Source: Chromera velia (Eukaryota > Sar > Chromeraceae). Taken from it: a DNA stretch of 24,315 nt. The notes beneath the pieces were generated by a model. That model saw only the letters and a program-made list of their open reading frames with translations. It was not told the DNA's origin and did not search any database. This document shows, piece after piece, positions 2,847-24,315 of this stretch. A program made the translations under genes and the position numbers. How positions within the stretch are numbered: the stretch's first letter is position 1; every line of letters begins with the position of its first letter. The DNA is taken from positions 1 to 24,315 of the forward strand of contig JAHBMJ010001945.1 in the NCBI GenBank assembly GCA_018398765.1. Reading direction: 5' to 3'.

Positions 2847-2877
<31 letters not shown>

Positions 2878-3018
2878 CGACAGACCGACAGACCGACAGA
2901 CCGACAGACCGACAGACCGACAGACCGACAGACCGACAGACCGATAGAACGACAGAACGACAGACAGACAGACAGACGGACAGACCGACAGACCGACAGA
3001 ATGACAGAACGACAGAAC

Positions 3019-3050
<32 letters not shown>

Positions 3051-3199
3051 GCTAGACAGACAGCTAGACAGACAGCTAGAGAGACAGACAGACAGACAGA
3101 CCGACAGAACGACAGAACGACAGAACGACAGACAGACCGACAGACAGACAGACCGACAGACCGACAGACTGACAGACAGACAGACAGACAGACAGACAT
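2449..3199. repeat. Tetra/octanucleotide array (CAGA)n / (CAGACCGA)n
   Basis: About 750 bases of CAGA units interleaved with the octamer CAGACCGA, and variants CAGAACGA, CAGAGA, CAGCTAGA. It opens with CAGG units (2449-2472). A four-base period has no stop in any of the plus frames and cycles through the same Thr-Asp-Arg-Gln peptide, and the minus frames give Cys-Leu-Ser-Val. The long open frames here are therefore repeat artefacts. Blocks of the octamer separated by pure CAGA runs suggest repeated expansion of a mixed unit. The right end abuts a pyrimidine-rich core (3197-3232) that recurs near 24100. Confidence 0.97.
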
Positions 3200-3232
3200 A
3201 CTATATGGTTTCTTTCCCTCCTTTCCTTCATG
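3197..3232. repeat. Pyrimidine-rich core flanking the CAGA array (copy 1)
   Basis: The sequence CTATATGGTTTCTTTCCC followed by TCCTTTCCTTCATG sits between the CAGA array and a short CAGACGGACAGGCAGA tail. Closely related copies occur at about 24096-24132 and 24147-24191, again next to CAGA units. Confidence 0.75.
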
Positions 3233-4440
3233 CAGACGGACAGGCAGACAGACAGGCGGGCAGGCCGAACAGGCCGCGAGGCAGATAGACACACGTGTAA
3301 GCCCGGCAGGATCGATGCATGGGACAATTGATGCATAATGATCGTCAGGTCAACCAATCGAAAGACATGTATGAGAGGAAGGGACGAGAATGGACTCCAT
3401 GGAGGCTGACTGACTTGTGATTCGGGTTCTTCCTTCTAAAGTCATGCAGCCTGTGCCGCCGTGTGGGGGCCCACACTTCCCCGAGGGTCTCTTGCATTTC
3501 CTCCTCCGGCTTTCTGCTCATTTCCTCCGGGGACCCCTTGGCGATTCCCCCCCTGTCCCTTTCCTCCCCTTTGGCGCATTTTTGGCTGCTGGAGATTCTG
3601 CAGAGACGCAGGAAAGCCGGCAGGCAATTAGGCATGCAGGCCGGCGAATGGCCATCAGCAGTATACGCATACATGGTTGAGGGACTGCACACAGAGAGAG
3701 AAAGAGGCGTGTCCACCCGTAGATAGACGCGTACTTCGCTGCACAGCTCCCCGGCCGCCCGTGACAACAACGCATGTGCTCAGAATGTTCGGAATCCGCA
3801 TGACTGCGTGTAATAATTATTGCGTGTAGAAAGCACCCGCAGCCTCGAGTTAACTGAGAGTGCACAGCAACTCGAATGATACTTTCACGGGGCATGGCTG
3901 CAAGAGCGGCTCTGAGTGGTCCGCATGCACATCACATAGACGTTATCTGCACGGACCGATTAATTGTATGTGTCTGACCTTTCTGCGGCGGTCTGGTGTT
4001 GCGAAGAAGAACTCCCGTCCCCTTCACAAGAGACCTGTCTTTTTTGTTCTTCTCGAGGACCGCTACCATCTCGGGAGTGTGTTCCTCCGTTTTTGAGGCA
4101 GAAAACGTTTCGCGCAAACTGGTGAAAAGGCGCAAAAAGAAGGCCTCTATCTTTAGAAACTGCATGTATTCATTGCGCATGGCCAGAAATTAAATTAATG
4201 CATGCATGGATGGAATCTGCGATGAAACGCGGCGTCGCGCGCGCGATCGATCTGCGTGATCTTGCATGCATGCCCCGGCATGCATACACCGGGCAATGCA
4301 TAGCATCTGACGCACGCAAGCGTTCGAACGACCCCGGAAAGCAATTAAGAAGAGTTAGTTTGTTAATCTGGCGCACACAATTTTTCAAAATAAGTAATCG
4401 AAGTCACACCTATTTTCGTCGCTCGTAGTCTTAGGATGGA
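3233..4440. other. Intergenic region without a supported gene
   Basis: The stretch begins with degenerate CAGG/CAGA units (to about 3290) and then has mixed composition near 50% GC. Open frames on both strands (for example 3345-3770 minus) are short, overlap each other, and show no recognisable motif. TGCATGCA occurs at 4199-4206 and 4263-4270. It separates the 5' end of the ankyrin gene from the first AT-rich transposon-like block. A promoter for the minus-strand ankyrin gene would be expected just right of 2148, inside or before the repeat array. Confidence 0.55.
3932..4180 (-). CDS. Possible small ORF, 82 residues, unrecognised
   Basis: A minus-strand frame whose composition is less skewed than its neighbours. 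It starts MRNEYMQFLKIEAFF, has an amphipathic stretch over residues 1-30, and is followed by a Lys/Glu/Thr-rich part. No family is recognised, no splice partners were found, and opposing frames (3860-4096 and 3996-4193 plus) are also open. It could be a terminal exon, a small gene or chance. Listed only as a candidate. Confidence 0.15.
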   Translation of the reverse strand: MRNEYMQFLKIEAFFLRLFTSLRETFSASKTEEHTPEMVAVLEKNKKDRSLVKGTGVLLRNTRPPQKGQTHTINRSVQITSM

Positions 4441-4480
4441 ACAAATCGACAAACTAGGTTAGATCCGCCTCTCATATATG

Positions 4481-4674
4481 GGGACGCGGCATGCATGAAA
4501 AAACCTTTAATCACAGTCTCCCCAATTTTTTTTCTTAGTTAAAAGTTAGGTATACATATCCTGTATGGAAAAATATGTTTAACTCCGACAGTTTGAGAGC
4601 TAAAAGTAATTTTTTTCTTTTTTCGACCACTTGAAATGATGATTGAGGGTTTTGTCATGCATGCCGCATCCTCA
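4481..4674. mobile_element. Fold-back (MITE-like) element with GCGGCATGCATGA arms
   Basis: The arm at about 4481-4512 (GGGACGCGGCATGCATGAAA...) pairs with the arm at about 4641-4674 in inverted orientation. They share the exact 13-mer GCGGCATGCATGA and a further 15 or so bases (AAACCTTTAATCA against AAACCCTCAATCA) with one gap. The 130 bases between are AT-rich and non-coding. The size (about 195 bp) and structure fit a non-autonomous DNA element. No target duplication was identified. Confidence 0.5.
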
Positions 4675-4914
4675 CTTAAAATATATACGATTTAAAAAAA
4701 AAAAAAATCAAATTAACTTTTTTTTCCTCTATGTGTAGCATTGTCTAACAATTTCCAGCGAACCGGGACCGGCACTTAGCTCACCAGCTTTAACCATCTC
4801 AATTCTACTCAATTGAATTCGTTTCAATTGAAATATACATATTCTATCTTGTATACCCAGATTTTGAATCGCTATCGATCTTACAGATTGCCACAGATTC
4901 CTACCCTAATTCTT

Positions 4915-5177
4915 ATGACCTCCCTGAACCTAACTACTACTTGAAAGTTCAAGCCGCATTTTTGGATAAGCTTAGAAGTCTGCGCCGCAAGCATAGATTA
5001 TTTATGGTCTCTTGAAAGCCAAAGCCGCATATCTGGACGGTGTCTTGACCGTTTTAGACCGTCTACGCCGCAGGCGTAGGCGGTCTCTTGAAAAACGATG
5101 CCGCAGGTGGAGATCATCTTGATTCAAAAGTCACAAGTTAGATTTTTTCAAGTGGCACTTAGGTTCAGGAAGGTTAT
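4915..5177. mobile_element. 263-bp TIR element with three internal ~72-nt repeats
   Basis: Terminal inverted repeats of 19 nt: 4915-4933 (ATGACCTCCCTGAACCTAA) and 5159-5177, its inverse with 2 mismatches. Inside are three tandem units starting with CTTGAAA at 4940, 5011 and 5087 (spacing 71 and 76), each followed within 20 bases by GCCGCA and, in the first two, a purine-rich TGGA. One unit includes an imperfect palindrome at about 5056-5086 (AGACCGTCTACGCC / GGCGTAGGCGGTCT). Non-coding. Fits a miniature inverted-repeat transposable element; no clear target duplication was found. Confidence 0.6.
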
Positions 5178-5323
5178 TCCTATGCTATGATCATTATTTT
5201 AATATCTTTATTTTTATATTATTTTAATACTTAATTGTGGTTAAGCTTAAGGTCTATCATTCATACCAATTCTAAACTTGGATCAAGAATCATCTAGATA
5301 ATAATCCATTGATATATATACTA

Positions 5324-5353
5324 TTACTACTACTACTACTACTACTACTACTA
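5324..5353. repeat. (TAC)n trinucleotide microsatellite
   Basis: About nine uninterrupted ACT/TAC units in the AT-rich block, preceded by TATATATA. Confidence 0.9.
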
Positions 5354-5421
5354 TGTGACTACTTCTCTAGTTGAGTAACTTGAGTAGAAGCTGCATGCAC
5401 GTCAGACATTTGGCATTGGGC

Positions 5422-5890
5422 CAGAGTTGTGAAAAGCCCCGGGTTCCATATGTTAAATACTGGAAATGCCGAGCCGTCTGGTATTTAAGCTAAATGCTGT
5501 TATATTCCAGTATTTTAGACCCCCTCCCGGCCCCTTCTGAGCAACTGGGGGGCAAGGGGCGGGCCGGGGGGTAAATGCATATGTGTAAGTTCTAAAGATG
5601 CTAAGGTTAGGCCATGGTTAGGCCAAAAAATATCGTGCATGGCCTGACCGCGTTCACTTTTTTTGAAGAAAAAAAAGTTGGCCATCAATTTTTGCCGAGA
5701 AATCCTCCAACAACATGACATTTCTTCATAAAGTTCTCCTTCCAACCAGTTTACTAGGATTTTTAAGGTTGTATATATTTCTTTTCAAACTTTAGGGACG
5801 GTCTAAACGGTATCTATAATGTAAAATTCCGGAAATGCCGGGCCCTCTGGCACTTAAACTAAATGCCGAAAATGCTGGAACACAACCCTG
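5422..5890. mobile_element. hAT-like non-autonomous element, 469 bp
   Basis: The left end CAGAGTTGTG (5422-5431) is the inverse of the right end CACAACCCTG (5881-5890), 9 of 10 matching. CAGRG is the usual start of hAT-family ends. The direct repeat ATTGGG lies one base outside the left end (5415-5420) and immediately outside the right end (5891-5896), a plausible decayed target duplication. Inside, a 55-60-nt module (around GGAAATGCCG...CTCTGG...ACTAAATGC) is present twice in the same orientation, at about 5453-5511 and 5820-5878. No transposase frame. Confidence 0.5.
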
Positions 5891-6459
5891 ATTGGGTGGG
5901 AGGCCAATCTTCCAGACATAAATCAAAATTTTTAATCAAAATCCGAATTTGAATCAATAACGGGAAGTCTTACTGTGGAAGTTGCAGCGGAACCAAACAA
6001 TTAATCTAGAATTAATCAATCAAGCAATGTATAAAAAAATCATTTAAAAATGAGTGAAAAAAAAAATCAAATTATTTTATAAATAATTAAAAAAAAATTT
6101 CATTATAATTGAAGTTGACAGTGAAATTTCTGACTATCAAAAAATCTAGTGACTCTTCGGAGCTAGTCAGTAGTCTAGTTATTGCATCATAATACGAAGG
6201 GCTCGGACTCGGACTTTGAGACTTAAGCTGGGTTCTAATTTAAAGGTGGGACTACAATTGATTTTAACTTGGCTGGCGGTCCAGCGCTGGGTGTCAAACA
6301 AAAAAGTCTATGCACCGTGTCACACGACCTGCTTGACCTTCACCCTGTCAGTGGCTTTCAGTCAATGAATCGCTGTTTGACCTTTACAGCCGTTTTGAGA
6401 TCTAGTTTGAGATTCAACTTTGAGAATCTTAACTCGCCCGGTAAATCACTCTCAAGCTC

Positions 6460-9281
6460 TCAATCATCCAACGCGTCATCGCTGTTTACACCAAGCTTTT
6501 GCAGCTCCGCTCGAAGGGCTTCCGGCCTGCACGGTTTGGGCAGCACGGCGTCCGCTCCTGCCTCCTTCAAGGCTGCCATTCCGGTACCCGCCACTTCCCC
6601 TGTGATGCCCAGCACTATCGGCTGCTTGATGCTCGGCTGAGAAAAAAACTCTCTCAGCCTTCTGACCGTCTCTGGGCCATCGATACCCGGCATGTCTTTG
6701 TCCATCAAAACAACGCGAATTCGGTCGGACGCCCCCCTGCAGGCAACCACCTGAAGGGCCCTCTCACCCGAGAGACACATCCAGGGGCGAAACCCCAAAC
6801 GTTCCATTGCACGGAATGCACCAAAAGCGCAGATCTGCAAAAAGAGAAATAAAATAAAAAGACAATGAGGTGATGATTGATCAGTCATTCTCTTCCCGTT
6901 GTATTTGGAGAGGAACACCGGAAGGCACTGAATGTGCAAGCAGGCACACTCAAAGAGAGATAAAGAGAGAGAGAGAGAGAGCGAGAGCGAAAGAGAAAGA
7001 AAGAGGAGACGAGACCTGTGTGTTCACGCAGAAGAATGAAGAGAAAGAGATTGGCCCCAACCAAATATGCCTGTTTCACCCAACCCCCCTCTGGTCCTTC
7101 TTCCCGTCCTTCCTTTCCTTCCCAGTCGTTCTTTCTTTCCTTCCTTCCTTTTGATCCACCCCCCTACCCACCCAAATATCGTCCACAACAAGACAGTCGA
7201 AGTCCTTCGCATACGCCTGCACCTGCTCTGCCATCATGGGCGGGATGTTGGAGGGAAGCCCTTCAAGCGTGGGGGGCATCGGCAGGTCGGCCTCAGTCTG
7301 GACCTCCGCCTCCTCCTCCTGTTGCTGCTGCTGCGGTTGCTTTTGCTGCAGCTGTGTCTCTGAGAAATCGGCTGAGGTTGCGATTACTCCAGGTTGACGG
7401 CTTCCATTTGCGTTGCCGTCTGTGGGAGGGGAGAAAACGGGAACTGCGAACGACGCCTGCTCACTCTGAGCCAGTGCCCCAATGCCAATGCCAGGCTGAA
7501 TTGATGTGTCACCTACCTTTGCCCTCTCCTCAGCCAGCAGACTTCGCCGTAAAAGGTCTCTGCTACTGCTGCTGCAATTCTTTTGTTGGTGCGAAGCGGA
7601 GCTATCACGTGCGGATTCGCCCGACGAATTCTCTCCCCCCCCTTTCGGACTTTTTTCAGTTGCACAAAGTACTTCACGGGCCGGATTTGAATTATGGGCT
7701 GCGATAGCTCGGAAAAAAAATTCCTTCTGGCCCTCAGTCAGTACTCTCTTGAATCGGGAGCTCATGGGACTAGCGATAGCGTCTGAGGGCTGTGGATCTC
7801 GAGGGACAACGGCTACTCCCCTCATCCCCCAACTGGCCCCGACAGGCGGCGCCTTTCTCTCTGCAAACGAGCGGCGGCTTTCCTGTGCAAGGAGAGCTTC
7901 CCCCAGACACAACGACACAGCAGACGGGTCCGCAGTCTGAGTGCATCCTGAGCCCCCCTGCCCCTGATTCTGGTTTCTTTCTTTTCCTCTTCCTGTCAAT
8001 GACCGCCGATCGAAAGCAGAAGAAGAGAACGGAAAGCTGCCCTCACGACTTCCCCTTCTCTGTCGCCGCTGCTCGAGGAGGGGAGATATCAGAGGTGCAA
8101 ACAGTGAAAAAGAGAAGGTTGACCCTGTGCCGTGACCTTCCGACTCTGCCCCGACCCTACCCCCCCAATGGGCCTCCACAAACATTTTGGAAATGCAGAG
8201 ACCCAAACCAGTCCCCCCACCCCTTTGGAGTTCCCCCGACCGGATCTGACTGTACGCAAGAAAAAGTTTCTCTCTGTCAGAAGCACTCAACCCTTCCCCC
8301 GAGTCCGTCACTGACAAAAGAATCTGAACCCACCCACTTACCTCATCAGAGGAGGGAAGGCCGGTGGACGTTCTGACCACATCACAGAGTCTCTCTTTTT
8401 TTTCTTTTTCGGACTGGCCTCTGCTTTCACTTTCTGACAGAATGCACTCTGGAGGCAAAGCGGTTTGGATGAGTCTGCTAATTTGGAAACGGAGAGTGAC
8501 CTTTCCTTTTGCCTTCGTGAACTTGCGCGCATTGCTCAGAAAATTTACTGCGACCTGCCGGAGGTGCAACCAGTCGGCTGCTACTGCCACTCTTTTTGAC
8601 ACAAACGATTCGTCAAGGTCGGGGGCGACTTCAATATTCACTCTGAAATCAATTTGGGACGCTTGCATGGAGAGCCTCTCGAGATCTGAGAGCTCTCTCA
8701 ACCATACGAGGGGATCACAAATAGAGACAATGTACTCGAACCCCCTTTTTTGGACTTTTTCGAGAGTCAACACATCGTCACACACCGATTTCATGGCCTC
8801 AAGGGAACCCCGAATCTTTTTCTGAAGAAACTCGATTTCCATCTTCTGCGCTGTCATGAACGATTCGCTTTCCTTCTGGTCAATGGAGCCGTTCGTCTTT
8901 TCTTTTTTTGGGTGCTTCTCTTCCTCTTTGCCCAGCACACCCCCACCCTCTCTTTTTGTTTTTATTTGAGACGAAAGAGAGAGAGAGAAAGCGCGGCGGC
9001 TGGTGAACTCCAGGTCGTCGAGCAGAAACATGGCACCGCTTATGGGGTTCCTCATTTCATGCATCATATACGACCTGCATGCACACGGATGGCCGGACGC
9101 AGATGGATACATACATACAGGCATAAGCAAGTAAGGAGGGGAGGAACGTTTTTCCTTCACTCTTACCCTTGTCTTCGTTTTCACTTATTCAAGCACATCT
9201 TGTTTCACTCCTGATTTCACAACAGCCCTGCTGCGATCATACCCATCTAACTTCTTAGACAGACCGACAGACGGGCACACA

Positions 9282-9312
<31 letters not shown>

Positions 9313-10296
9313 GGGTGCGCGCAGAGAGAGAGAGAGGGAGACAGACAGCGACTTACGGGCAGAAAACGGGGGAAAGGAAGGAGAAAGAAAAGGGTGAGCA
9401 CGCATGAGACGGGCAAATCAGTTCTCCCTCTTTCACGAAATCAAACCAAGGGAAAACGCACAGCTTAACAGACAGAGAACTTACAGGTACTTCTTTTTCC
9501 TCCCTCAACAGCAAGATATCTGGAGAGACCGAAGCCAGGAGAGGAAGGAAAGAAGGCAGGGAGACAGACAGACAGACAGACTGACTGACAGAAATCTTCG
9601 ATAGCTGTCTTCCGCCTCTTTTCTGAGCAAGTTCATCTCGAAGCAGTCCCTGAGTGTCCCCCTTCTGCCGTGAGTCGAGACGGCCAGCAGGAGAATACAG
9701 GTGAGGACGGGTATAATCGTCGCAATCCCCTCTGTTAAGCCGAAGTCGCAGAGCGAAAGATGTAAGAAAGACCACACGCACGCATGCGCACCAACAGCAT
9801 AATTGTACGCAAGTCTGTCCATGTCAAACATGCTCAACATGATGGTTGGCCACAGACCGTCAAGCACGTGAGCACCTTTGTACTCTGACCGGATTTCGGC
9901 ATCAGCAGAGAGGGCGTACGTCAAAGAATTCACATCAAAACAAACCGTGATTGCAATTAGAGTCGAACTCAGATACGTATCGAAGGAGGCTTCGGGGCGG
10001 TTTCTGAGGAATGGCGCAGCAAGAAACAAGTGAAGAAACGTTTCGAACAATACAATAGCAACATTAGTACCAGGAATCTCTTCACCCTCGAGGTTGTCGT
10101 CTTCTTCTGACGGGAAAACCATTTGAAAAAGAGACGGAAACAGGAAGAGGACCAGCGTCACTGCGATCGCGAGAACGATCAACAGAGCGGCTCGGGAGAG
10201 TTGCTGCTTGGCTGCGTGCACACGCCAGGCCCGGAACGTGGGAAGACTGCCAGCAGTGCTACCGAAACTCTCCCCTGCGTTGGCCATTGCGTTCAC
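6460..10296 (-). CDS. Membrane hybrid sensor histidine kinase with C-terminal receiver (3 exons)
   Basis: Exons on the minus strand: 10296-9590, 9074-7172, 6834-6460. Introns are GT-AG and all joins keep frame, giving 994 residues. The first join reads ...YRR-F-L-S-Y-M-M-HEMRNP, exactly the run-in expected for an H-box. Residues about 38-225 hold several hydrophobic spans, probably about six membrane segments. The DHp H-box has His241 in HEMRNPISG. The ATPase domain has the N-box (NFLSNAR, Asn413), G1 (DSGEG, 493-497) and G2 (GTGLG, 523-527). A 300-residue Ser/Gln-rich linker with a polyQ/E stretch follows. The receiver starts at VVDD (Asp867, Asp868), has the likely phospho-acceptor Asp915 in LMDKDMPGIDG, Thr948 and Lys970, and is split by intron 2 just after VVDDIW. 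A basic low-complexity insertion (about 262-309) lies between the DHp helices. Expected role: ATP-driven autophosphorylation and relay to its own receiver. The sensed input is unknown. Confidence 0.88.
6835..7171 (-). other. Intron 2 of the histidine kinase gene
   Basis: Donor GTGGGT (7171-7166) and acceptor TTTTTGCAG ending at 6835 on the minus strand. The coding-strand sequence carries a CT microsatellite (6964-6985 on plus as GA). The intron interrupts the receiver right after its acidic pair VVDD. Confidence 0.8.
9075..9589 (-). other. Intron 1 of the histidine kinase gene
   Basis: Donor GTCAGT (9589-9584) lies in a GTCA/GTCT microsatellite; acceptor TGCATGCAG ends at 9075. It carries GAGA, (CG)n and (CA)n tracts when read on plus (about 9278-9345), i.e. 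CT, CG and TG on the coding strand. Splicing restores CTG-TCG (Leu-Ser) just before the H-box. Confidence 0.8.
9278..9345. repeat. (CA)n(CG)n(GA)n compound microsatellite
   Basis: Consecutive alternating CA, CG and GA tracts within kinase intron 1. The (CG)n part can adopt Z-form geometry in principle; no function is implied. Confidence 0.9.
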
Positions 10297-10740
10297 TTAT
10301 TTTCTCCTTTACGATTCTGAATTGATTGGGCGAAAGAAGCAACACTGCGCGCAACGGGTCAATCTACGATCGAATATTGTCTGAGCTAGAAGACGAAGAA
10401 CCTTCGTTTCACCTTCAGAAGAAGTCCGACAAGCAGCCCTTTACATGGCAATCTCTTGCAACATCTTGCAACAGAGTCAACAATTGACGCTCAGCAGTTA
10501 TGTCAGAGCAGTTCGAAGATGTTCGAAGGAAATATATATATCGAACTTAATTCACCTGAGACAGCTAGTCGATCTGGCTGATATCTGGCTGTCAATGGCT
10601 GTCAATCCAGGCTCACTGAGAGTGTGTCAGACTGACGCGGTCTATATAGTGGCTCGGCCATAGCTCGCGGTCATCACCCCCGAGCCTTGCATGCATGCTC
10701 GGAAATTTGCCATGCATACCGATACGCTCAGTCACGTACA

Positions 10741-10777
10741 TTCAATGTCGAAATTGTGTCGAATCCTCGACATTGAA
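10741..10777. promoter_or_regulatory. Perfect 11-bp inverted repeat in the divergent promoter region
   Basis: TTCAATGTCGA and its exact reverse complement are separated by 15 bases (AATTGTGTCGAATCC, itself containing another GTCGA). It could be a dimeric protein-binding site or a hairpin. It lies about 450 bp upstream of the kinase start. Confidence 0.45.
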
Positions 10778-11189
10778 CACACAGACAAGCAAGAACTACG
10801 TTTCAAATACGCACGTAGACGGACTGTTGAGAGCCGCATAGATTGTCAATCTTTTGTCGGCACTCCGACACCTGCTTGTCCGGTTTCCCTGCACGTCCAC
10901 ATACAGCTGTTGGAGCAAGCAACACATCATTCAACTGACCCCATGGAGCTGTGAAATCGCACAAAGAGCAAAACGCAACTCATGATTGACAGCGGTGTCA
11001 AGCGATGAGAAGGACGTGAGGATCAGAATCAAATCTGCTTTGATGTCAGTTGCCCTAGCTGCCGCTTGATAGGCATTTGCATGCAGACTCCTTACCCCCT
11101 CTTCCCCAATGCATACATACATGTATCTACATCTCTCGTCTGCATGTTTCGTCTTGTGTTTGAACGCAGGCATCGCATGGGAATTGGGG

Positions 11190-11539
11190 GCTTTCCGTTG
11201 CTCTCTCTACTCCACCTGATCCCTTGTGAGGGTGCCTCCTTGCTGGGAGCAGGTGTGAGGGCAGAGGCCTGGAAGGCAGGGACCCTGCTTCCCCCTGGTG
11301 CCCTCCTCCAGCCTTTGGAGGGTCCCTCCGACCTTGTGCACCCCAGGGGTGTCAGAGGAAGAGGGGCTCTCTGGGACTCCCCTCAAACAGCGGGAGTTCC
11401 AGAATACCATGTTCCAGGGTTCCACCAAAGAGCGCACACTCCAGAGCCTTCCCTTCTTCAAAGAGAGGGCAACTCAAGTCAACCTCAGTTGCGCATTCTC
11501 GGAGCGGGCCCTGAGGCCCTGGCATTCTCCCAGAAGGGG
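11190..11539. other. GC-rich region with degenerate internal periodicity, upstream of gene 3
   Basis: GC content rises well above the surroundings, and several overlapping frames on both strands stay open. Short GGGACC/GGTCCC and GGAGGG/CCCTCC palindromic words recur. From about 11385 a loose 33-42-base period of AAAGAGCGN...TTCCC type is visible. It is in frame with the first exon of gene 3 and could encode an N-terminal extension, but the composition does not look like the rest of that protein. It may be a degenerate minisatellite or a CpG-type promoter region. Confidence 0.4.
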
Positions 11540-13585
11540 ATGCAGAAGTTGACATACGAGGAACTTAAGCCCCCCGGCTTGACCGACCAGCAGAAGGTGA
11601 CGCTCAAAGACGTGATCCACGACATCTTCGCAACGACAGACGACCAGGAAGGTCTGGTGGAGTTGGACGAAGACATTCTGCAGGGGGTCAACGCGATTCT
11701 TCTCCCGGTGGTCAAGGCTGCTGCGGTGATTTGTGTGGAGGCAAAGAAGCAGACCAGCCGGAAGGAGTACAAGACTCTCCTGGATGTTGACCTGGTTGCG
11801 GGTGCCACAGAGCAGGGGGACCCAATCAGGAAGTGGAAGAGGAAGGACACCGGGGCTGAAGTGAACGTGGAAGAGGTCAGTCTGACAGCGGCTGCATGTG
11901 CGCACAATGGTGTCGGAAGCTAGGCAGGTAAAGACAGAGGCGGCCGGAGAGAAACGCAGACCAACAGATACGGTAGGCAAATAGGTGGGCAGACAGGCAG
12001 GAGAGACTGGGGGGGCAAAGGGTAGGAAGACAGGCAGACAGAAAATCAAAAAGGCGGGTGAGCACGAGGGCCCTCAGGTTTGTTTGAGAGGCGTCCAGGT
12101 GCAGAGACAGACAGACAGAGAGGGAAGCAGAAATATTACAACACGTAAGCGGACAGGAAGGCGACTGTCTTCCCTCCCCTTGCTTGGACCTTCGACCATT
12201 CTGTCCCCCCTGTCTGTTGCTCGCAGATCAGGGTGATGATGCCAGACGGCTCCTTTACCCTAGAGCCCATGGAGGTGATCAACCGTGCGGAGACGGAGGA
12301 GGAGTTTGAGGAGAGGAGGCTCGAGCTCTTCAGAGACGCACAGTGGGTCCTCAGCAAATTGCAGGTGCGTTGGAAAAAAAAAGAAAGAAAAAGGAAAGGA
12401 AACAAAGGCAGAAACAGAAGCAAGAACATATGAGATTGAGACGTGGTCAGATTCCGATCCTGTCTTTCCTTCCCTTCTCTGCAGACAGAGGGGTCGAGTA
12501 TTTGCGTCGTCCTTTTCATTACCCCTTTCCGTCCCTGCACACAAGTATTCTTTGGAGCTTTCACTGTTCATTTCATTCGATTGATTTTTCCCGTTCTTCT
12601 TTTCCCGCCTCGATCAACTCTTCCCCCTGCAGGCCGAAATCGACTATGACGCCCTCCGAATGCGTCGGAAGACCGCCCTGTTGGTTGATATTTACAACTC
12701 CCGTCACATCTCAGAGGACTCAAAGGAGGACCAGATCATGTCTCTGTCCTTCAACAGACAGAAACTCCCGGAGGTCTTCCAAACATGGGTAGGACAAACG
12801 AATCCAACCGACGTGGGAAATATACAAAGAAGGAAGGATCTGCGAATTGCGATTCAAAAATCGCAAGAAAAAACAGCACAGAAACTGGCAGATATCGCCG
12901 ACGAGAGGGAAAGAGAACGACAACAACAGGCTGCAGCTATTGCGAGCAGTTCAGGCAGCGGCACCCCTTTCGTTCCTCCACCGTCCGAACAACAGAAGGA
13001 GATTCAGAGACAAAGAGACGCCCTCATCAGAGAACAGCAAGCGAAGGTACAACAAATTGAACAAGAATATATGACCAGATTGCAAGCCCTGGGACCCTCA
13101 ACAGCAACCACATCTTCCTCCACCAGTTCTCAGGGAACTGCGGGCGCGCCTTCGACTCAGATGACCATGGGGACATCAGTGCCCGCCTACCACTATGCAG
13201 GCAATCAGCTGGGACTCAACACAGCGACACAGGCCTCAAGTGACCGCATTGATTCATACGAGCCTGAACAGGTCCGTGTCGACCTGCCTGTCTGTGCCTT
13301 TCTTTGTGTGTCTGTGGAAAGGTGAGCAGCTCATGCAGACGCGGTCCTCAAGACCGGCACAGTCGATCAGTGATGAATTCTTGTTTTGAAATGGATTTGG
13401 AGGGCAAACAATTTAAGGACGGAATGGAACCTTTATGGGTCAATCAGCGGCAGAGTGCGGGCGCACAATTGTCCGAGATTTGAAGCCTCTGCACTATGCC
13501 GTCTTTGTCAACCCTATGGCCGTCTGTCCGTGTGCCTTTCTCTCCCTATCTCTCTCTTTCTCTCTCCCTCTCTCTGTCTATCACA

Positions 13586-13624
<39 letters not shown>

Positions 13625-14496: not shown

Positions 14497-14563
<67 letters not shown>

Positions 14564-15190: not shown

Positions 15191-15817
15191 ACCACTCCCA
15201 CACAGACAGAAGCACGCAGGTCCTCGGTTGTTACACAGTATGGAGCCTCGGCGACAGGCGGACTCTTGATCAATGACTGAGCTCTGCCAGTATGAGGCTC
15301 TGGCTCAAGCACCCTGCCAGTGTCTTTCACAGTACAGATGCCTGCACGTGCAAGAAACATTCAAAACTTGAAAGGCGCGGAGCCATGAGAATGGAAAACT
15401 CACAGCCAGCCCTACAGTACCAAAAAATGAAATTACATCTCAAAATCATGCACCCACATAAGAAATGAAATAGAAAAAGACAGAAACACAAAACAAAACA
15501 AATATATGTACAAGTCTAGCTATATATGTACAAGTTAGTACAATTAAGTATCCAATGCTATCCATGATGTTTTATAAAAGTTTTTACTGTAAAGCTTTAT
15601 TTACAGCCATGCATGTACAATTACGGACTAGATTAAAGATAGGATTAATTAAGGAAAACATCTAAAAAATTTATCAAATTAGTATCAATCATGCCTCACA
15701 ATCATCCATTGAATTCAATGAATTTACTAGTGAATTTAATACTTAAATTAAATCAACATCTAGATCAACATGAATAAAAAAACCACTATTTTATTTCAAA
15801 TTATCCCTATATATTAT
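15191..15817. other. 3' flank of gene 3 passing into AT-rich DNA
   Basis: About 280 bases of mixed composition that probably contain the 3' UTR are followed from about 15470 by AT-rich DNA with TATATATGTACAAGT duplicated near 15502-15535. No gene or RNA is seen. Confidence 0.5.
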
Positions 15818-16086
15818 GATTCTGCCGGACTATTTCTCCAGAATTTTAGAATTCAAAATCTTGGTTCTAGGGATTATAAAGACTAAAATCCTGGATCCTT
15901 GGATTTTAGAAATGAATGCCAGGATTTTACGGGATTTTACGGGATTATATCTTAAAAATTATCTTTCCCGTAAAATTCCGTAAAATCCTAGGAAGAGGCT
16001 AGGATTTTAGCTTTCTTCCAGGATTTTAGATTTTAAAATCCTAGGTATAGGGATTATATTTTTAACGTTAAGAGTCCGGCAGAATC
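15818..16086. mobile_element. 269-bp MITE with perfect 14-bp TIRs and AAAATCC palindromes
   Basis: GATTCTGCCGGACT (15818-15831) is the exact reverse complement of AGTCCGGCAGAATC (16073-16086). The interior is filled with both orientations of TAAAATCC/GGATTTTA (for example CCAGGATTTTA and TAAAATCCTAGG), so the single strand could fold into many stems. Non-coding. No target-site duplication is obvious. Related AAAATCC words continue to the right of the element and recur at 18299-18352. Confidence 0.65.
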
Positions 16087-16128
16087 CTGGGCAAAATCCG
16101 CCAAAATCCGCTAAAATCCTGGCCAAAA
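16087..16128. repeat. AAAATCC-type repeat, left flank of the 2.17-kb element
   Basis: Three AAAATCC words in tandem. The 20-mer at 16103-16122 (AAAATCCGCTAAAATCCTGG) is repeated exactly at 18304-18323 on the other side of the 2.17-kb element. Confidence 0.7.
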
Positions 16129-16206
16129 CACTTCGTGCCCTGGTCGGGTTGACCCTTGGGCGCTAAAAACCGACCGCGTGGTTCGCACAAAAAAAAAAAT
16201 TTGTCA

Positions 16207-16285
16207 AGTTTTGCGTTTTCCTTAAAATTTAATTATAAAACCTATATATGTTTTCATAATTAAATTCAAAGGAAAACGTAAAACT
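16207..16285. repeat. Long imperfect hairpin inside the 2.17-kb element
   Basis: The arm 16207-16236 (AGTTTTGCGTTTTCCTTAAA...) and the arm 16256-16285 (...AAAGGAAAACGTAAAACT) are near-perfect inverses of about 30 nt around a 19-nt loop that includes TATATATG. Confidence 0.7.
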
Positions 16286-17200
16286 CCGCCATGATAACCC
16301 TCTGACAGGGTAATTCAAAATGAGTTTTTTTAATTTTAATAGTCAGACATTTGGGGCTCCAGGCAACATTTTAGCATCCACCACGGCTGCGTGCACGTTC
16401 TAAAGCTACCGAAGGGGTGGCCGGTGTCATTCGCGGAACATAAACACATAAAAAATGCATGTATGTCAAATTTGGTCGCCAAAAAGCTTCAAAAAGCCTG
16501 ACTGCTGACCCGACCTTCTTGAGGGTCGACTGCAATTTTCCTTTCAGACAGCTCCCGGTGAATTTTTTTTGTATGACCACTTGGGGGACCTTCCAACTGA
16601 TGCAACAGGATGCTTTTTGGGTGAGGGATCCAACTCTGGATAGACCAGAAGGTGAGCTCTTTCCTAGGCTTTTTCATGAATTTCTCTTTGTGCTGTAGGT
16701 GCATGTGTCAGATAACCATTTTTTTGTGTCTAAGTCCCCTAGAAAGTGGTTTTGGCTAAACATTTTGGGCTCTCTGGGTTTATAGGAGCAAAGAGCAACT
16801 CTCTATGGGGCAAAGATTGGGTAGAACGACTGTTGGATGGATCAAGAGCCTCAGTTAGGTCTCATCTGACATTATATGATACACACAAATCTTGAGGTAC
16901 CTCCAGTGAGGTCGAAAGGGGGGATGAAGTCTGGCTGGTGGTCATGATTTGATCTGCACTTCTATGAATGAGTATTCCGCGGACTTAAAAGACTGTGGCA
17001 GTGCTGATTTGACCTGACAGTGTCAAAAGGCCTTGTGTGGTTGCCAGATTGACTGATGTGCCTCTGTGGACCTTGTTGGACATTCAGTCTGATTCATGAA
17101 TTTGGCCGTTCTCTGCCCTCTCTGCTCCTCTAGACGTTGGATTTCTCTCTGCTACTAGATTAATAAGAGGCCAAAGAGTCTCTTAACTTCGTTGCAAGCA

Positions 17201-18023
17201 GCAATCTATACACTTGAACTTCAAGAGTTAGCCGGATAGCGCAGTAACTTTAGGGTCCATGACCTCCTAAAGTTACCGTACTTTAGTAACTTTTACAGAT
17301 GCCTTAAATTTACTAAACTACAGTAGGAAGGGCCCCCCGGAAGGCTATGCTATCATAATGAAACTAGTGTTTGCACTGTTTTTTTTAACTAGAGTAATAC
17401 TGTTTTAAAATGTTTTCTCTGCTTCAGATATGCGGCAAAATGATTTAAAGCTGCTATCAGTTCAAGATTTAGTTAAAACATTTTCAACACTTTACTTAAT
17501 CATCCGCCATCATCCATGATTCAGTGCCAGACTTATCGACAAATCATTGTGTTTAAACAGTGCTTCTTTGGAGCTTTAGATACAGATTCACTGGGTTTTG
17601 ACTGCGCTGTCACTGCGGAAAAATTCAGTCCAAAATTGAGACTCACAGTCACCAACTATGACGTTTAGCTGTCACAGACATGATCTTTATTTTAAATCAT
17701 TACATCAATAAGAGAGTGCTTTATAGTGTCTTGTACGCTGTATTATGGTCACTATAAGCTTAAACTTGGTACACACTTTTACCTGCAGAGAAAAAGAAGG
17801 AGAGACAGGAAGTATAACGGTTCTTAACTACGTGGGAAAGTGCGGTAACGGGCCTGAAAAGTTTTTGAACATGGCTTAGAAAAGAGTAAAATTATGGTAA
17901 CTTAACCTCTCTAACAGGTTAAAAAAAGCCGTCAGTAACCGGTAAAAAGTTACATAATTCTAGTAACGTGACTTTTTTGCAAAAGTCCTTTAGTAACTCT
18001 TAAGGTCCAAGTGTAGCAATCTG
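17201..18023. mobile_element. hAT-like non-autonomous element (807 bp) with 8-bp target duplication
   Basis: Termini TACACTTGAACTTCAAGAGTTA (17209 on) and the inverse of 17994-18015 match at 19 of 22 positions. They are flanked by GCAATCTA (17201-17208) and GCAATCTG (18016-18023), 7 of 8 identical, as expected for an 8-bp target duplication. The subterminal regions are packed with AGTAAC/GTTAC words, including the hairpin GTAACTTTAGG (17244-17254) / CCTAAAGTTAC (17266-17276). Such subterminal repeats are typical transposase-binding sites in hAT elements. No transposase is encoded. Nested within the 2.17-kb element. Confidence 0.65.
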
Positions 18024-18295
18024 TTGACAAAAAGACAAACAGAAGCTCTATATTCAATATTTCACACTTCCTATATAAAACGACTTAGTGATAATTTCAG
18101 ACTTTGAGCCTATGGCTTAGACCCGACCGGGTCAATATTATTATAAAAATCAGGTTTCGTCAGGTTTTAGGTCCATGCAAATTTCTAGCCTCGTATCGGT
18201 TGTGGTGCGCTCGGAGCGCATGTTCACACACTTTTCCTTTATAATTTTGGTCGGTTTTTAGCGCCCAAGGGTCAACCCGACCGGGACACGAAGTG

Positions 18296-18360
18296 AATCC
18301 CGTAAAATCCGCTAAAATCCTGGGCTAAAATCCCACAAAATCCTGGCTACCTGCAAGATA
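18296..18360. repeat. AAAATCC-type repeat, right flank of the 2.17-kb element
   Basis: Four TAAAATCC or CAAAATCC words. It shares the exact 20-mer at 18304-18323 with 16103-16122, in the same orientation. Confidence 0.7.
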
Positions 18361-18761
18361 AAGAAAGAATGCTCCCTGCTAAGCCTTCTTGTTGGATCTC
18401 TTCTTTTCTCTTCTTTTTGGTGTAAACTTTGACTGCAAAGCCAGATGGATAAATAAGGAAAGAAGGCATAAAAAACATTGTGTATCACCAGCCTCTTTTC
18501 TTTTTCTGCAAGAGTCGGGTTTATGCGTATATCCATTCTCGTGAGGGTGAAGATATAGAGAGAAGTCTTCTTGCTTCTTGTTGGCTCACTCCTTCTCCTG
18601 CGTCCTTCTGCAGACCTCCAAAGAAAAACAAACAAAAAGTGGAGAACGGGCCACAGACAAAGAGACAGAGAGATAGAGAGATAGAGACAAGAAAGATTTG
18701 TTGGTAGGGGGGTCCCTCCTTACTTGCCCGCAATAAAATAAGACTGAGAAACTAGGGAAAG

Positions 18762-18823
18762 GGATCGAAATACCAACTGCAGTTTCAGGCTCAAAGCCAT
18801 CATCAGGGACTTACAATCGATCC
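18762..18823 (-). ncRNA. Possible hammerhead-ribozyme-like motif
   Basis: On the minus strand: GGATCGA, 11 bases, CTGATGA (18806-18800), a GGCT/AGCC stem with a 3-base loop, GAAA (18786-18783), the self-complementary run CTGCAG, then GGT...TCGATCC. The CTGATGA and GAAA core words are in the right order. A 7-bp outer helix (GGATCGA with TCGATCC) plus CC/GG near the core could form stem I with an internal loop, as in the short-stem-III hammerheads of Penelope-like retroelements. Weak point: the first stem II pair would be U-U, not G-C. Activity is unproven. Confidence 0.3.
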
Positions 18824-19251
18824 TTTTGGCAAATGAGAATTTTGTTGCTGTCACTTTGATTATATATACTCAACAACCAGAAGTGCCTCTTAATACGGCC
18901 TGAATGCACAAAAACAATATTGAACAATGCGACGCATTCAGATATTTTTGAGTGAGACTAAAATTGCATATTAGGTTGGCATGGCTCATTGGACCCAGAC
19001 CAGCGCCATGTATGGCTTATAGCACTGATTGCGTATAGGCCGGGGTTACATGCGATTTCTGCATGCATGCATAATCAACTAGAAAAGACGAAATGCAAAT
19101 ACAAAGATAATACAATAGGAATTGTATAACATAGAAAATGAATCTATGCATGCGAATATAAATTGAAATAAATCAGTGTCAAGCATAAACAGGTACTATT
19201 ATGAATGCTACACTGCATATGCCGATGCTAACTGCCACGGGAGACAAACAA

Positions 19252-19347
19252 GGCTGGCCAAACAAAATCGTTTTAATTTTTCTAAAGAAAAAATTAAAAC
19301 GGCTGTAGAAAAATTAAAACGGCTAGCCAAACAAAAACCTTTTAATT
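19252..19347. repeat. Duplicated and palindromic GGCTRGCCAAACAAAA unit
   Basis: A 27-base segment at 19252-19278 recurs at 19321-19347 (24 of 27 identical). Between them lies a palindrome at 19269-19301 (CGTTTTAATTTTTCT / AGAAAAAATTAAAACG). Non-coding; looks like debris of a small fold-back element. Confidence 0.5.
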
Positions 19348-19713
19348 CTTCCTGCGGGTTACTTTAATAATTATTGGTTTACGTTAATACTTTACTACTA
19401 TGCAGGTTTAGGTATGCATAATGAAATGCTTAAGCTGTTTGTACTTCTAGGTCGATTACACTTCAAATTCTTGTAGATTCTTCTTTCAAATTTTAAAAGT
19501 TGTAGTTCCTCCTTAGCAGTGGACCACGAGGAGCATCCATATTATTAGGGAGACAATAAGCTGGGCTAGAGATAAATGAATTTCAATGAATAAAATGTCA
19601 GTGTATTCCACTTTTCATATAGAAAATTAATTAAACAAAATTTAAAAATTTGATAATATAAAAAAACAGAATAATTTCTTTTATCAGTAAGAGGCTGTAT
19701 CTTCTTGAAAGTC

Positions 19714-19974
19714 TTAATCACCGCCTCCTTCGTTTTCTTGTTCCTTTTCTGCGGCTATTTTCGCTTTGATCGCATCCCAGTCCACGTTGATCTCCTGCAC
19801 CAATACACACACAGACGCGAAAGTCGTGAAGAAGGAAGCGCAGGAAAAATGCGTGTGTAAGTCCTTCAAAAACGGACCGGATGGTCAGGGAGCGCTTCAG
19901 TTCAACGCAGAGGTTTCCTTCCGATGAACCGATGGAGGCATGCGGCAAGGAAGTGACAGACAGGGAGAGAGAGT

Positions 19975-20014
<40 letters not shown>

Positions 20015-21587
20015 AGCGAGAAAACACCTACAGATTGTACACAAAGGGACATCCGAGAGAGTGTCTGGTGAGAAGAAGGACGAGGTTAGTACGTGCTCAG
20101 ACAGGAGAGGGGCGAACCGAAAGATGAATTTCGACACACTGACTCACACGGGCAGTAGACACACAAAGAGACAGACAGAGACGCAAAAGAAAGAAAAGAG
20201 GAATCACGCAGAGCAACCAGCCAACCTTGGAGATTTTTTCGAATTTAGGGTTTGACTCCTTGTGTCTCATCTCCTCCAAGAACATCGCCCGGTACCCCAA
20301 CACTGTGTCCACGTGCGTTTTGTGATGCACTGCAAGCTCCAGAGCAGACTGCAAAGAAAGGGAAAAAAGAGAAAATTACTTCACGGAAGATCGACAGTCT
20401 TCATGCAGAATTCGGAGCGACGAATACAACAGAATCTCTCTAGATAAAAGCGGTCATATTGACAATCAATGTATTGTCATTCGGAAACATCAAAGTGAAA
20501 TGCAGTAAAACAGTGAGTGTCAGAGTTCAAAAAAGGCAATCATCCGCCTACAGCCCAATTTCCCGTCGCCCCACCAGTTGACAGGATCTGAACCTCTCTG
20601 CTACCTCTTGTCTCGTCTCCCTCTCCGCGTATGTCTCTCTTTTTCACAAGGTAGCACCCGTTCTGTCTGTAAGAGAAGTGTGGACTCACCTCCCACCGAT
20701 GCAACCTGATGAGCATCTTGATGGCCCTGCAGAGACAGAAAGCGGTCAAGATTTATGATTTGATGTTTGTTTTATCAAGACAACTGAAAAGGGGGAGCAT
20801 GCAAATTGGCAGAAAAACAGAGAGACCGGTAGGCACCCGGACACATCGGCAGATGACTAGGACAGGACATCAGTGTCTTCCAAGGAGGATCCAAAAAGAA
20901 GGGCAAAGAGGAAATCCCCCCACAAATACAAACTGGAAATCTGCAGAAGTGCGCGAAAATATTCGATGTAACAGACACGCCCATTCATCCTCTCCCCTCA
21001 GCAAATGGTGCACTCCCCTGCCCCACCTGCCTCTCTACTCACTATCCAGCACCTCTTCATAGCTACTCAATGCACAGCTGTGGGTTCATGGACACACACA
21101 ATGCTCAAGCAAAACAACGCCCTGAGAACACTCATTTGATCTGCTTTCATCTGACTCGCGCCGCCCCCCCGACTTTGCCAGTTTGTTTCGCTGTCCAACG
21201 AAATTGATTGAGTCCAGTCCGACTTACTTCCTGCCTACCGACTCACCTGTAGACCATTTTGTTCCGAAGAAGGATCTGAACCGCCTCCTCGGGCTTCCTG
21301 CAGAACAAGGCCAACTCTGCTGCCCGCAGCGTCTCGTTCTTCAGAGTTGTCACGTGGGCGATGTACTGAACTTTGTCGACTTCGTCTAGAGCCGCCAGGG
21401 AGATCTCGGCAGTCTGCAACTCTCTGCAAACATGGCCTCAGACAGAGAAGAGAAGAGAAGAGAGCGACAGAAGACAAATCAGAACATGCATCAAAGTTTC
21501 ACTGCACTTCCTCACTAAGCGTGGGCATTCTCCCCTCTCAAATGTTACGAGTGGATGATCTTTTCACCCAACGGAGCGCCGCAGTGG

Positions 21588-21622
<35 letters not shown>

Positions 21623-23870
21623 TGATTGTGCATGTGCGTCACTTTTGTTCAGCAGTTTTTTGGCAGAAGGAAGAACGGAGGGGAAACAAATGCAAACAGA
21701 CAGACAGGGATACACTGGTCAAAGAGAGGCCAAAGAGATGGAGAGACACAACACCGAACTATGCATGTCCATCTGCGTTCATATTCACAGAGAAGCCGCA
21801 AAAGATACACACACAAAATTAGGAACAATTCGCTCTCGATCAGACTTTTGCGTGACGATCAGTGCCCCCAGACACGCTTCATGATTCCAAGGGCAAACAA
21901 GCCATAAAAACCAAACCACAGAGACACCAGACACACACATACATACACACACATACACACCAATACCAACACCAACACACACACACACACACACAGAGAG
22001 ACACAGACAGACACACAGACACACACACCAACACACACCAACACACACACACACATATGCAGACAAGCACACAGAGGAAGACAGTCGAAGCGCCCACACA
22101 CAAAAATGAACACGTACCGCGCGTTCAGGCCCATCGCTGCTAGAGATGCCCACAGGTGTGGCGCCTTCACGAACCGGCAGAGTCGAATGGCTTTCTCCCT
22201 GCACACAAAAACAAAAAGAGTTAACCAGTAGGGCTTCCAGCAGCACCCCCTTGCTTCATTCAGCAGTCACGCGACCCATGCAGGGATCGCACAAATTCAT
22301 CGTCTTACATAAATACATTCTTTTTTTTTGTTCAAAGGGAAAACTCGGGCTCAAGGCCCTTGCAGCAATCTCTGCAAACGTACAAAAATTGACTTTACAA
22401 CCCCACTCACCCACTCACTCACTGACCACTGTCCCCCATCCACAAGTTTGTACAGAGGCACCGCGTAGGGCGACACCGAGAGGAACACCAGGGCCCCGTC
22501 CAGTCGTCTCACCGTCACGTGGGGACCCGAAAAAGCCGCAATCTGGCAGAGCTTACCACAGTTGCCCGCCTCCTTCGTTGACTGCATGCAGGTACCCAGA
22601 GGACAGGGGGTATAACCACAAAAAAAACGGCAGAAGAGTGCAGCCATCCACCAACCTCCTTCTGCCGCAAAGGAGAAAAGCGAGGAACATAACTCGTCAA
22701 GCACACTTTAAGAGGTCTCACGTACTCAGCTGGAAAGCCTATTCGTCTGTCTGCAGCAAAGAAAAGAAGCGACGAAAAAATAATACCCACGGGTAGGCAT
22801 TCTGGCTGACCGTCGCAAGGGGCAGAAGATCTGGGTCGATGAACAGAGCCGCAGGGTAAGTCCAGCAGACAAGTTTGTTGTCTGCAACCCCCGCGAGCAT
22901 GTCGGTTTCGTCGTTCCACGCGAAGGTCTCAACCATCTGGGCGAGCTTCACGAGTCCAGGCCTGCACCAGGGCAAGTCGAGCGAAAGAAAGTGAGAACGT
23001 TCAAAAGAGAAAGAAAGAGAAGGTTGTCAATCAGTAAGGGGCTACTACGTCAACAGAGAGAGAGAGGCCATCACGGACAGGTCTCTTGAGAAAATCCCAC
23101 AAAACCCTTTTTTCCCCTTCCTGCTCTGGTTTTTGACTCTGGTCTTGTGCTCCGTGGCCCTCTTTCTCCTGGTACCTCGCAACAAACATCAACCGACCGT
23201 CTCCCTTCCTCCATTGCCCTACTCCCCCCCAATTCAACTTCACACCGCTGTCCCTCCCTTCCACTGACTTACTTGTGTGCAAGGGAGATGAAGACGTCTT
23301 TGTTTTTGTCCATCAACGCAATCTTCCTGTCTCCTCCCCCTCCATGGTGATTCAATGCCACGACCTCGACCTCCACTTTGTGCTCCACAGGGGACCCCAT
23401 GGCCTTCCCAGTGTGCGCATCGAAAAGTCGAATCACCCGGGGGTTCTGAGCGTCGACCTGCACACACACACACTCACACCCCATGTGCAAGTTCAATCAT
23501 TTGCACGCAAGTACCCCAACAGCGACTGAAAGTTTGTTGTTCCTACTACGAGACATTGGAAGGAGCTTTCGAGGAGAATATCGCGTCTTTACGTAGGAAA
23601 TGGATACAGAGAAACAAGGCAAATAATGAGTGCAAAAGCCTACAGCAGAGGAGGAAGCAAAACGGTCACACCGCCTGCGTTTCCCTCCGAGGAGAAAGTT
23701 TAGCCACACGCTTGTATCCCGTCTTTTCTGATTCACACTCTACCAGCAGAAAACAGACTGACGATGCAGACTGCGTCCTTTGCCACTGCGAGAGTGGAGT
23801 GGTTGAGGAATTCCGTCCTCAGTCCGGGCACACGGATAGTGCTCAGCAGACGGCCCTCGTAGGAGTACAC
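19714..23870 (-). CDS. IFT80: Intraflagellar transport protein IFT80, C-terminal part (9 exons, 5' end outside window)
   Basis: Exons, minus strand, in transcript order: 23870-23763, 23457-23273, 22961-22787, 22581-22427, 22198-22118, 21423-21247, 20726-20690, 20348-20226, 19794-19714. All have GT-AG introns, and together they give 373 residues plus TAA. Recognised from family-typical stretches in the correct order: VYSYEGRLL, ALMDKNKDVFIS, FAWNDETDML, AIRLCRFVKAPHLWASLAAM, DEVDKVQYI, ALELAVHHKTHVDTVLGYR and the ending INVDWDAIKAKI. The first exons cover the end of the second WD40 propeller; the rest is the alpha-solenoid tail. IFT80 is a subunit of the IFT-B complex that carries cargo along cilia; about 770 residues is usual, so the first half lies beyond 24315. 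One exon is only 37 nt. The gene implies a flagellated stage. Transcription converges on gene 3. Confidence 0.93.
19978..20014. repeat. (GA)n microsatellite in the last IFT80 intron
   Basis: About 35 bases of GA on plus, i.e. CT on the IFT80 coding strand, within the intron 19795-20225. Confidence 0.93.
21588..21622. repeat. (GGCA)n tetranucleotide microsatellite
   Basis: About eight GGCA units in the IFT80 intron 21424-22117. It is a relative of the CAGA family (CAGG variant), also seen at 2449-2472 and 23883-23894. Confidence 0.93.
21930..22055. repeat. (CA)n-rich imperfect microsatellite
   Basis: Long interrupted ACAC/ACCAAC tract on plus (TG on the IFT80 coding strand), in the same intron as the GGCA array. 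It keeps frames open on both strands by chance. Confidence 0.92.
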
Positions 23871-24095
23871 CTGTAGTACATACGCAGGCAGGCAGGTAGG
23901 TGGGGAGGGGGCTGTGTGGGAAGAAGACGTGTGTGTTACAGAAAGGATTTGGGACAAGTAGAAGAGCGACCCACGTCTAGAACATTGTGTCCTTCGTGAA
24001 ATTATGAGACCTCCGCAAACCCGAGAAAGAAAAAGACACTAGCAAGAGAAAAACAATGAAGGAAAGGTAATTGAGCAATCAAAGACCGACAAACA

Positions 24096-24191
24096 GACTA
24101 CATGTTTCCTTTCCCTCCTTTTCTTCATGAACACAAAAGACAGACAGACTATATGTTTCTTCTTCTTCTCCCTCCTTTTCTTCATGAACAC
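24096..24191. repeat. Pyrimidine-rich core, copies 2 and 3 in tandem
   Basis: Two copies of GACTAYATGTTTC...CCCTCCTTTTCTTCATGAACACA, at about 24096-24132 and 24147-24191, separated by AAAGACAGACA. They match the core at 3197-3232 and are likewise attached to CAGA units. Confidence 0.75.
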
Positions 24192-24266
24192 AACAGACAA
24201 AAAGAAAGAAAGAACAAAGACAAAAGAACAGCACCAACAATCAAACAGCGTGGGCAGGGGGCCCCA

Positions 24267-24267
<1 letters not shown>

Positions 24268-24315
<48 letters not shown>
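24268..24315. repeat. (CAGA)n microsatellite at the right edge
   Basis: Pure CAGA units, at least 11, continuing past the end of the window. Confidence 0.95.

Follow-up and report, generated by a model that had tools for sequence, protein, structure and literature searches.

Cores beside CAGA microsatellites of Chromera velia as probable 3' ends of a 5'-truncated, Penelope-like retroelement

Introduction

A 24,315-bp stretch of the Chromera velia genome (contig JAHBMJ010001945.1, positions 1 to 24,315; referred to as a whole as the window) carries the same short, non-repetitive core beside CAGA microsatellites at two distant sites, and the locus raises the question of how one core came to lie twice next to the same tetranucleotide repeat. 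A reading made from the sequence alone had proposed a mobile, retroposed element that seeds such arrays, with a layout like that of the mini-me elements of flies. The three cores of the window are very probably the 3' ends of 5'-truncated copies of a single retroelement family. Its likeliest identity is a Penelope-like element (PLE) akin to the permuted Naiad/Chlamys type. Retroposition is well supported, given dispersal, a fixed 3' end, variable 5' truncation, same-strand TCTG flanks in most of the copies read, linkage to a reverse transcriptase (RT) and partial coding constraint.

Results

The core at both sites of the window was located by whole-window blastn against four single genomic copies. 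One copy was found at the edge of a CAGA array, at 3201-3232, and a pair at 24098-24264, as the sequence-only reading had it. The copies, together with the arrays delimited by Tandem Repeats Finder (TRF), are as follows.

2447..3198 (752 bp), no strand: CAGA/CAGACCGA microsatellite array on the 3' (tail) side of copy 1; TRF period 4, 188.8 copies, 75% matches
3201..3232, minus strand: copy 1, a 32-bp 5'-truncated 3' end of the putative retroelement, sense CATGAAGGAAAGGAGGGAAAGAAACCATATAG then TATGTCTGTCTG; whole-window blastn against single genomic copies, and sequence
3233..3257, no strand: degenerate CAGA units on the 5' side of copy 1; TRF rows 3232-3257 and 3233-3255
24098..24148, minus strand: copy 2, a 5'-truncated 3' end (..TTTTGTGTTCATGAAGAAAAGGAGGGAAAGGAAACATGTAG); blastn against single genomic copies
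24149..24264, minus strand: copy 3, a 116-bp 5'-truncated copy ending AACATATAG, then TCTGTCTG; blastn E 8e-51, and sequence
24267..24315 (contig end), no strand: CAGA array of 12.2 perfect units on the 5' side of copy 3; TRF

Copies 2 and 3 are arranged head to tail, and the 5' boundary of copy 2 is fuzzy by some bases at its junction with the tail of copy 3. On the minus strand copies 1 to 3 end ..CATATAG, ..CATGTAG and ..CATATAG, respectively, and TCTG units follow, preceded in copy 1 by TATG. The blastn alignments had E values of 8e-51 (116 bp, 96.6% identity), 4e-11 (38 bp, 94.7%) and 6e-8 (54 bp, 81.5%). The first is that of copy 3 to a copy on contig C90 (locus L028; L-numbers denote genomic loci that were read and C-numbers contigs), and the last extends into CAGA units, the core proper being 32 bp. 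The span 3197-3232 had been described as the CAGA array itself; it is mostly core, because TRF sets the array at 2447-3198, and what stands of that description is that an array lies directly to the left. A core unit of ~33 bp was not upheld, as the 3' end is fixed and the shared upstream extent runs from 32 bp (copy 1) to more than 1 kb.

The window's own assembly (177.8 Mb, 4040 contigs) was then the subject of a genome-wide search. The 17-mer CCCTCCTTTYCTTCATG gave 551 exact matches (274 forward, 277 reverse) and its reversed-pattern control gave 0, so the recurrence of the core exceeds chance and is not limited to two places. At 322 places CAGACTAT was located 8-28 bp ahead of CCCTCCTTTYCTTCATG, a strict count, since CTAC or other variants occupy the CAGACTAT position in window copy 2 and in several of the 30 copies read. 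Those 30 are the first of the 551 matches when contigs are taken in order, and come from 19 contigs; some share one cluster and they are not fully independent. The core on the minus strand of the window is a fixed 3' end, ..AACATATAG(TCTG)n, from which copies extend to different points of 5' truncation: the upstream limits of alignments to the four single genomic copies lay 41 to 329 bp from the 3' end across the 30 (a fifth reference copy, L018, yielded an empty result and was dropped). On the TCTG strand TAGTCTGTC was present within 60 bp in 22 of the 30, the remaining eight being near variants or mutated. Folding of the 3' end was no better than that of shuffles (z 0.74 and -0.61), and therefore no RNA structure is claimed. 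A mobile, retroposed element tied to CAGA, as first proposed, is thus borne out by hundreds of copies with CAGA/TCTG units in one orientation.

A second terminal sequence, sense ..GACGATATAG(TCTG)n or near it, was seen at eight of the 30 loci (L013, L014, L015, L021, L027, L028, L029 and L032) and is absent from the window; it suggests a second family or subfamily sharing the same arrays.

Among the 100 matches listed, which fall on 70 contigs, neighbouring pairs less than 2 kb apart were co-oriented in 21 of 21 cases, compared with three of nine for pairs further apart. Spacings recur within clusters, 148 bp occurring three times on C461 and 69 bp twice on C124, which shows that copies are also gained by local tandem duplication; partial tandem copies were read in L016, L017 and L035-L037.

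The position of the copies relative to TCTG/CAGA arrays was scored in the same 30 copies. A sense-strand TCTG 8-mer lay at most 44 bp from the 5' breakpoint in 23 of them (at most 6 bp in 21), and an 8-mer in the opposite orientation was found there in none. On the 3' side, 28 copies have a TCTG 8-mer within 96 bp, and 24 have one no more than 40 bp from the estimated end. Most copies therefore lie within or next to CAGA repeats and keep a constant orientation to them. Because two or more TCTG units stand at the truncated 5' end too in 23 of 30 copies, insertion into pre-existing arrays fits better than the birth of arrays from the tail alone, and the element mostly makes use of arrays that already exist. 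The proposal that it seeds arrays genome-wide is tenable only in part. Ends of arrays with at least four perfect units numbered 3744 in the genome (1779 and 1965, interrupted arrays being counted more than once), and the 551 exact cores could therefore cap at most ~15% of the counted ends, a ceiling that covers exact and not degraded cores. The array-end control (reversed pattern, 1624 and 1689) is the opposite end of CAGA arrays and hence no null.

Upstream walking showed that longer copies have 0.8-1.2 kb in common, mostly 94-100% identical. A 437-bp upstream piece had 40 matches, at least eight of them at 100% over the full length (its own place included), which suggests that the element was recently active. 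In L073 the sequence that precedes the tail forms an open reading frame (ORF) containing a Pro/Ser-rich stretch as well as a finger-like motif. L087 combines RT motifs with the finger-like CPKCKATFSSERGLTTHQTHPNG in a single 404-codon frame, and the 665-codon frame of L088 comprises the RT and a linker, stopping just short of the finger. The link between RT and core is supplied by L089 (C3362), a decayed copy interrupted by stops and carrying an internal duplication, in which the CxC/GHVLT region, the RT and the finger follow one another and are succeeded by 408 bp that match the 3' part of L073 at 82%. The C-terminal half of the RT gave eleven matches on ten contigs and the N-terminal region three, and RT-bearing copies include those on C3362, C3740, C2578 and C829; in L090 and L091 the N-terminal region lies immediately downstream of TCTG units. 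Read by eye, L091 (C2464:35600-37800) has its RT region passing straight into the 3' sequence, as would an internally deleted, non-autonomous derivative. A comparison of L087 with L088 over 262 codons of the RT part and linker gave a nonsynonymous rate (dN) of 0.012 and a synonymous rate (dS) of 0.085, from few codon differences (seven nonsynonymous and 14 synonymous, 21 in total); this stretch has therefore evolved as protein.

The type of RT was approached through motifs and profile searches. The RT motifs read by eye are LPYLYIIPKMHK, FDFTTMY, GLPMGTNCSPELSNL and LIDD, together with PYLYIIPKMHK, and the N-terminal region has the form CPC..GHVLT..GARFR, with DCPCKKH..GHVLT in L089 and L090 (one short motif, weak alone). 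We take CxC..GHVLT..GARFR, PYLYIIPKMHK (PKMHK), FDFTTMY, GLPMGTNCSPELSNL and LIDD to be matches to PLE motifs. With hhalign, the RT aligned to one provisional PLE reference sequence at E 9e-5 (probability 59.5%). Against the genome's own RTs, single sequences labelled by eye, the E values were 0.45 and 0.32 for two that resemble long interspersed nuclear elements (LINEs), one of them a 136-aa fragment, and 0.023 for one that resembles long terminal repeat (LTR) elements. In NCBIfam, a group II RT model was matched at E 0.047. By its motifs and the one provisional reference, the RT element is likely a PLE, and the PLE family is probably new.

Several searches gave peripheral results. A first look with PF00078 (RVT_1) returned 1759 candidates genome-wide, most of the 150 that were scored spanning ~480 bp; the element's RT was absent among these 150. 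The L088 frame had weak, sub-cut-off Pfam matches to Sec6 (E 0.0019) and Topoisom_I (0.014). No hammerhead ribozyme was detected at the gathering threshold in eight sources, or at E<=1 in L073 and L089, the 5' end of the element being outside the sequence covered. A mir-341 match in L089 (E 2.2e-6, 40.9 bits, gathering 90) fell, by eye, on TCGG/TCTG repeats and was taken as chance.

The remainder of the window holds other features. On the minus strand, 205-2184 is an ORF with ankyrin repeats (Pfam Ank_2, E 1.5e-36), and 6463-9184 encodes a histidine-kinase ATPase domain (in 7079-9184) and then a receiver domain (in 6463-7023), perhaps a single hybrid sensor kinase gene divided by introns. Short repeats of 10 and 23 bp at 15922-16119 and 18303-18346 (TRF), with GGATTTTACG / CCGTAAAATT / CAAAATCC motifs at several places, are perhaps remnants of another element. 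Elsewhere in the genome, L078 has a light-harvesting-like ORF, by eye.

Discussion

Naiad/Chlamys elements combine an N-terminal GIY-YIG domain, a CxC motif before the RT, PKxHK within the RT and a bias towards insertion in microsatellites, and are not known to carry a hammerhead ribozyme. Craig et al. reportedly described these PLEs with an N-terminal endonuclease in 2021. With that group the Chromera element has in common CxC before the RT (in L089 and L090), PKxHK within it, the microsatellite bias (a TCTG 8-mer stands near the 5' breakpoint of 23 of the 30 copies and beyond the 3' end of 28) and 5'-truncated copies in partial tandem. It differs in having no GIY-YIG domain linked to it in the copies found, which do not extend far upstream of the CxC region, in a C-terminal finger-like motif with a Pro/Ser-rich stretch and in a target that is the same tetranucleotide repeat as the element's own 3' tail. 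Membership of the Naiad/Chlamys group is plausible, the endonuclease not being linked. The available text of PMC11167929 gives 5'-truncated copies in tandem or partial tandem as a PLE feature; such copies occur here, and the trait is not specific to PLEs.

A second comparison is offered by endonuclease-deficient PLEs, which, according to the part of PMC3846280 available, use exposed chromosome ends as primers and come to be bordered by telomeric repeats. In common are target repeats on both sides of 5'-truncated copies and the fact that no endonuclease was seen. In contrast to insertion at chromosome ends beside telomeric repeats, the copies read here are inside contigs beside CAGA arrays, which lie between genes (window 2447-3257) and, as far as the contigs show, away from chromosome ends. 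Insertion into a specific microsatellite is also common to rice Micron, going by the title of its description.

The alternative that fares best is an ordinary LINE, or a short interspersed nuclear element (SINE) that relies on one for its mobility, ending in (TCTG)n and targeting a microsatellite. It is unlikely, despite the fact that the hallmarks seen here (5' truncation, a fixed 3' end and a simple-repeat tail) are those of LINEs and that LINE-like RTs occur in the genome (for example L093, labelled by eye). Some R1-clade LINEs have microsatellite target specificity, and a C2H2 finger is also found in R2-like LINEs. Microsatellite-targeting LINEs share with the present element insertion into a specific microsatellite and probably differ from it in RT type. 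The element's RT is unlike the two LINE-like RTs of the genome (hhalign E 0.45 and 0.32, a weak test with single sequences, one of 136 aa), and it combines PKMHK with a CxC..GHVLT region, features typical of PLEs.

It could also be that the core is a passenger of the microsatellite, spread without transposition by unequal crossing-over and gene conversion between CAGA arrays. The equal cluster spacings on C461 and C124 do show local tandem duplication, as such a process would. Against it stand the spread of the 100 matches listed over 70 contigs, the many 5' breakpoint positions opposed to a constant 3' end and the inclusion of the 3' region in RT-coding sequence under constraint, and we regard a passenger origin as very unlikely.

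A DNA element of the mini-me/DINE-1 type, bringing its own proto-microsatellite, is scarcely credible: a short core next to GTCT units does resemble the GTCY repeat of DINE-1 block A in Drosophila, but that element is, in the available text of PMC2374699, one that lacks significant ORFs, holds its conserved core internally, has subterminal inverted repeats and tends to insert between TT, whereas here the core forms the 3' terminus of an RT-encoding element's 5'-truncated copies, the 30 that were read show no fixed 5' end, and related longer copies encode RT. The mini-me-like layout first suggested was accordingly rejected on structure.

A number of observations weigh against the preferred assignment, that of truncated copies of a PLE inserted into TCTG arrays. 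With respect to the arrays, the 5'-breakpoint TCTG 8-mer is absent in seven of the 30 copies (L010, L011, L018, L020, L021, L022 and L038). The untrimmed 5'-flank count is 17 of 30, lower than the trimmed 23 because alignments ran into TCTG. TCTG 8-mers on either strand are frequent in the background of the loci (341 of 2799 windows), and target-site duplications would be masked by the array. With respect to the protein, the Pfam RVT_1 model matched the RT at E 0.0092 (16.1 bits against a cut-off of 29.6), and the provisional PLE reference matched the same model far better, at 1e-10. A PDB sequence search returned nothing relevant, the L088 frame matching only a spectrin chain (E 0.15), and the finger remained below Pfam cut-offs (best E 0.025). 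GIY-YIG (PF01541) had 14 hits in the genome, five above the cut-off, and none of the 14 shared a contig with RT or N-terminal pieces; two of the GIY-YIG contigs, C3977 and C773, also carry 3'-end copies, but 15-17 kb off. With respect to the linkage, the RT is joined to the tail through shared 3' sequence, the RT-bearing copies as read stopping short of the (TCTG)n tail. As L089 is only 82% like L073 in its 3' part, the RT-bearing and the abundant young copies are related subfamilies. L090 departs from the element within the coding part and so breaks the rule of the constant 3' end, and no copy found extends far upstream of the CxC region.

For the truncated PLE copies favoured here, a mechanism can be proposed. 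The element RNA would end ..AUAUAG(UCUG)n. A nicked or broken CAGA array would offer a 3' end in CAGACAGA, which could pair with the UCUG tail and prime reverse transcription. This pairing is proposed because TCTG stands on the same strand on both sides of the copies, and none of the 30 copies read has it reversed at the 5' breakpoint; it would account for the target without special recognition. An early stop in synthesis would be usual, so that the copy would measure tens to hundreds of bases, with its 3' end fixed and its 5' end back in the TCTG array, and repeated insertion into the same arrays, together with tandem duplication by way of them, would give head-to-tail clusters. The pairing of tail and target as primer, the source of the nick and the PLE assignment are what we infer. 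One further possibility, tentative and on balance doubtful, is a PLE without an endonuclease of its own that would invade internal CAGA/TCTG arrays through its repeat-tailed RNA, pairing replacing site-specific cutting as in telomere-primed PLEs. Were this endonuclease-free reading true, each insertion would add tail units, and element and microsatellite may feed each other.

In the literature on Chromera retroelements, on PLEs with microsatellites or algae and on microsatellite-targeting non-LTR elements, no description of a CAGA/TCTG-targeting PLE was found among the matches listed, and the available text of PMC7943196 yielded no microsatellite link. Chromera has ~30 Mb of transposable elements, and Penelope is not mentioned in the portion of the main text of the chromerid genome paper that was available (PMC4501334). 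According to the accessible part of a 2025 paper, PLEs had been unreported in TSAR (telonemids, stramenopiles, alveolates and rhizarians) before Ectocarpus (PMC12477816).

If the core is, as is very probable, the 3' end of a retroelement, the observation is more important than first stated, and a 'microsatellite with a core' would be explained as retrotransposition. Should the host be an alveolate, PLEs would have a wider known range. With hundreds of insertions into one repeat, in one orientation, the system is rich enough in copies for target choice to be read off the sequence, and it has a bearing on primer choice by telomerase-like RTs.

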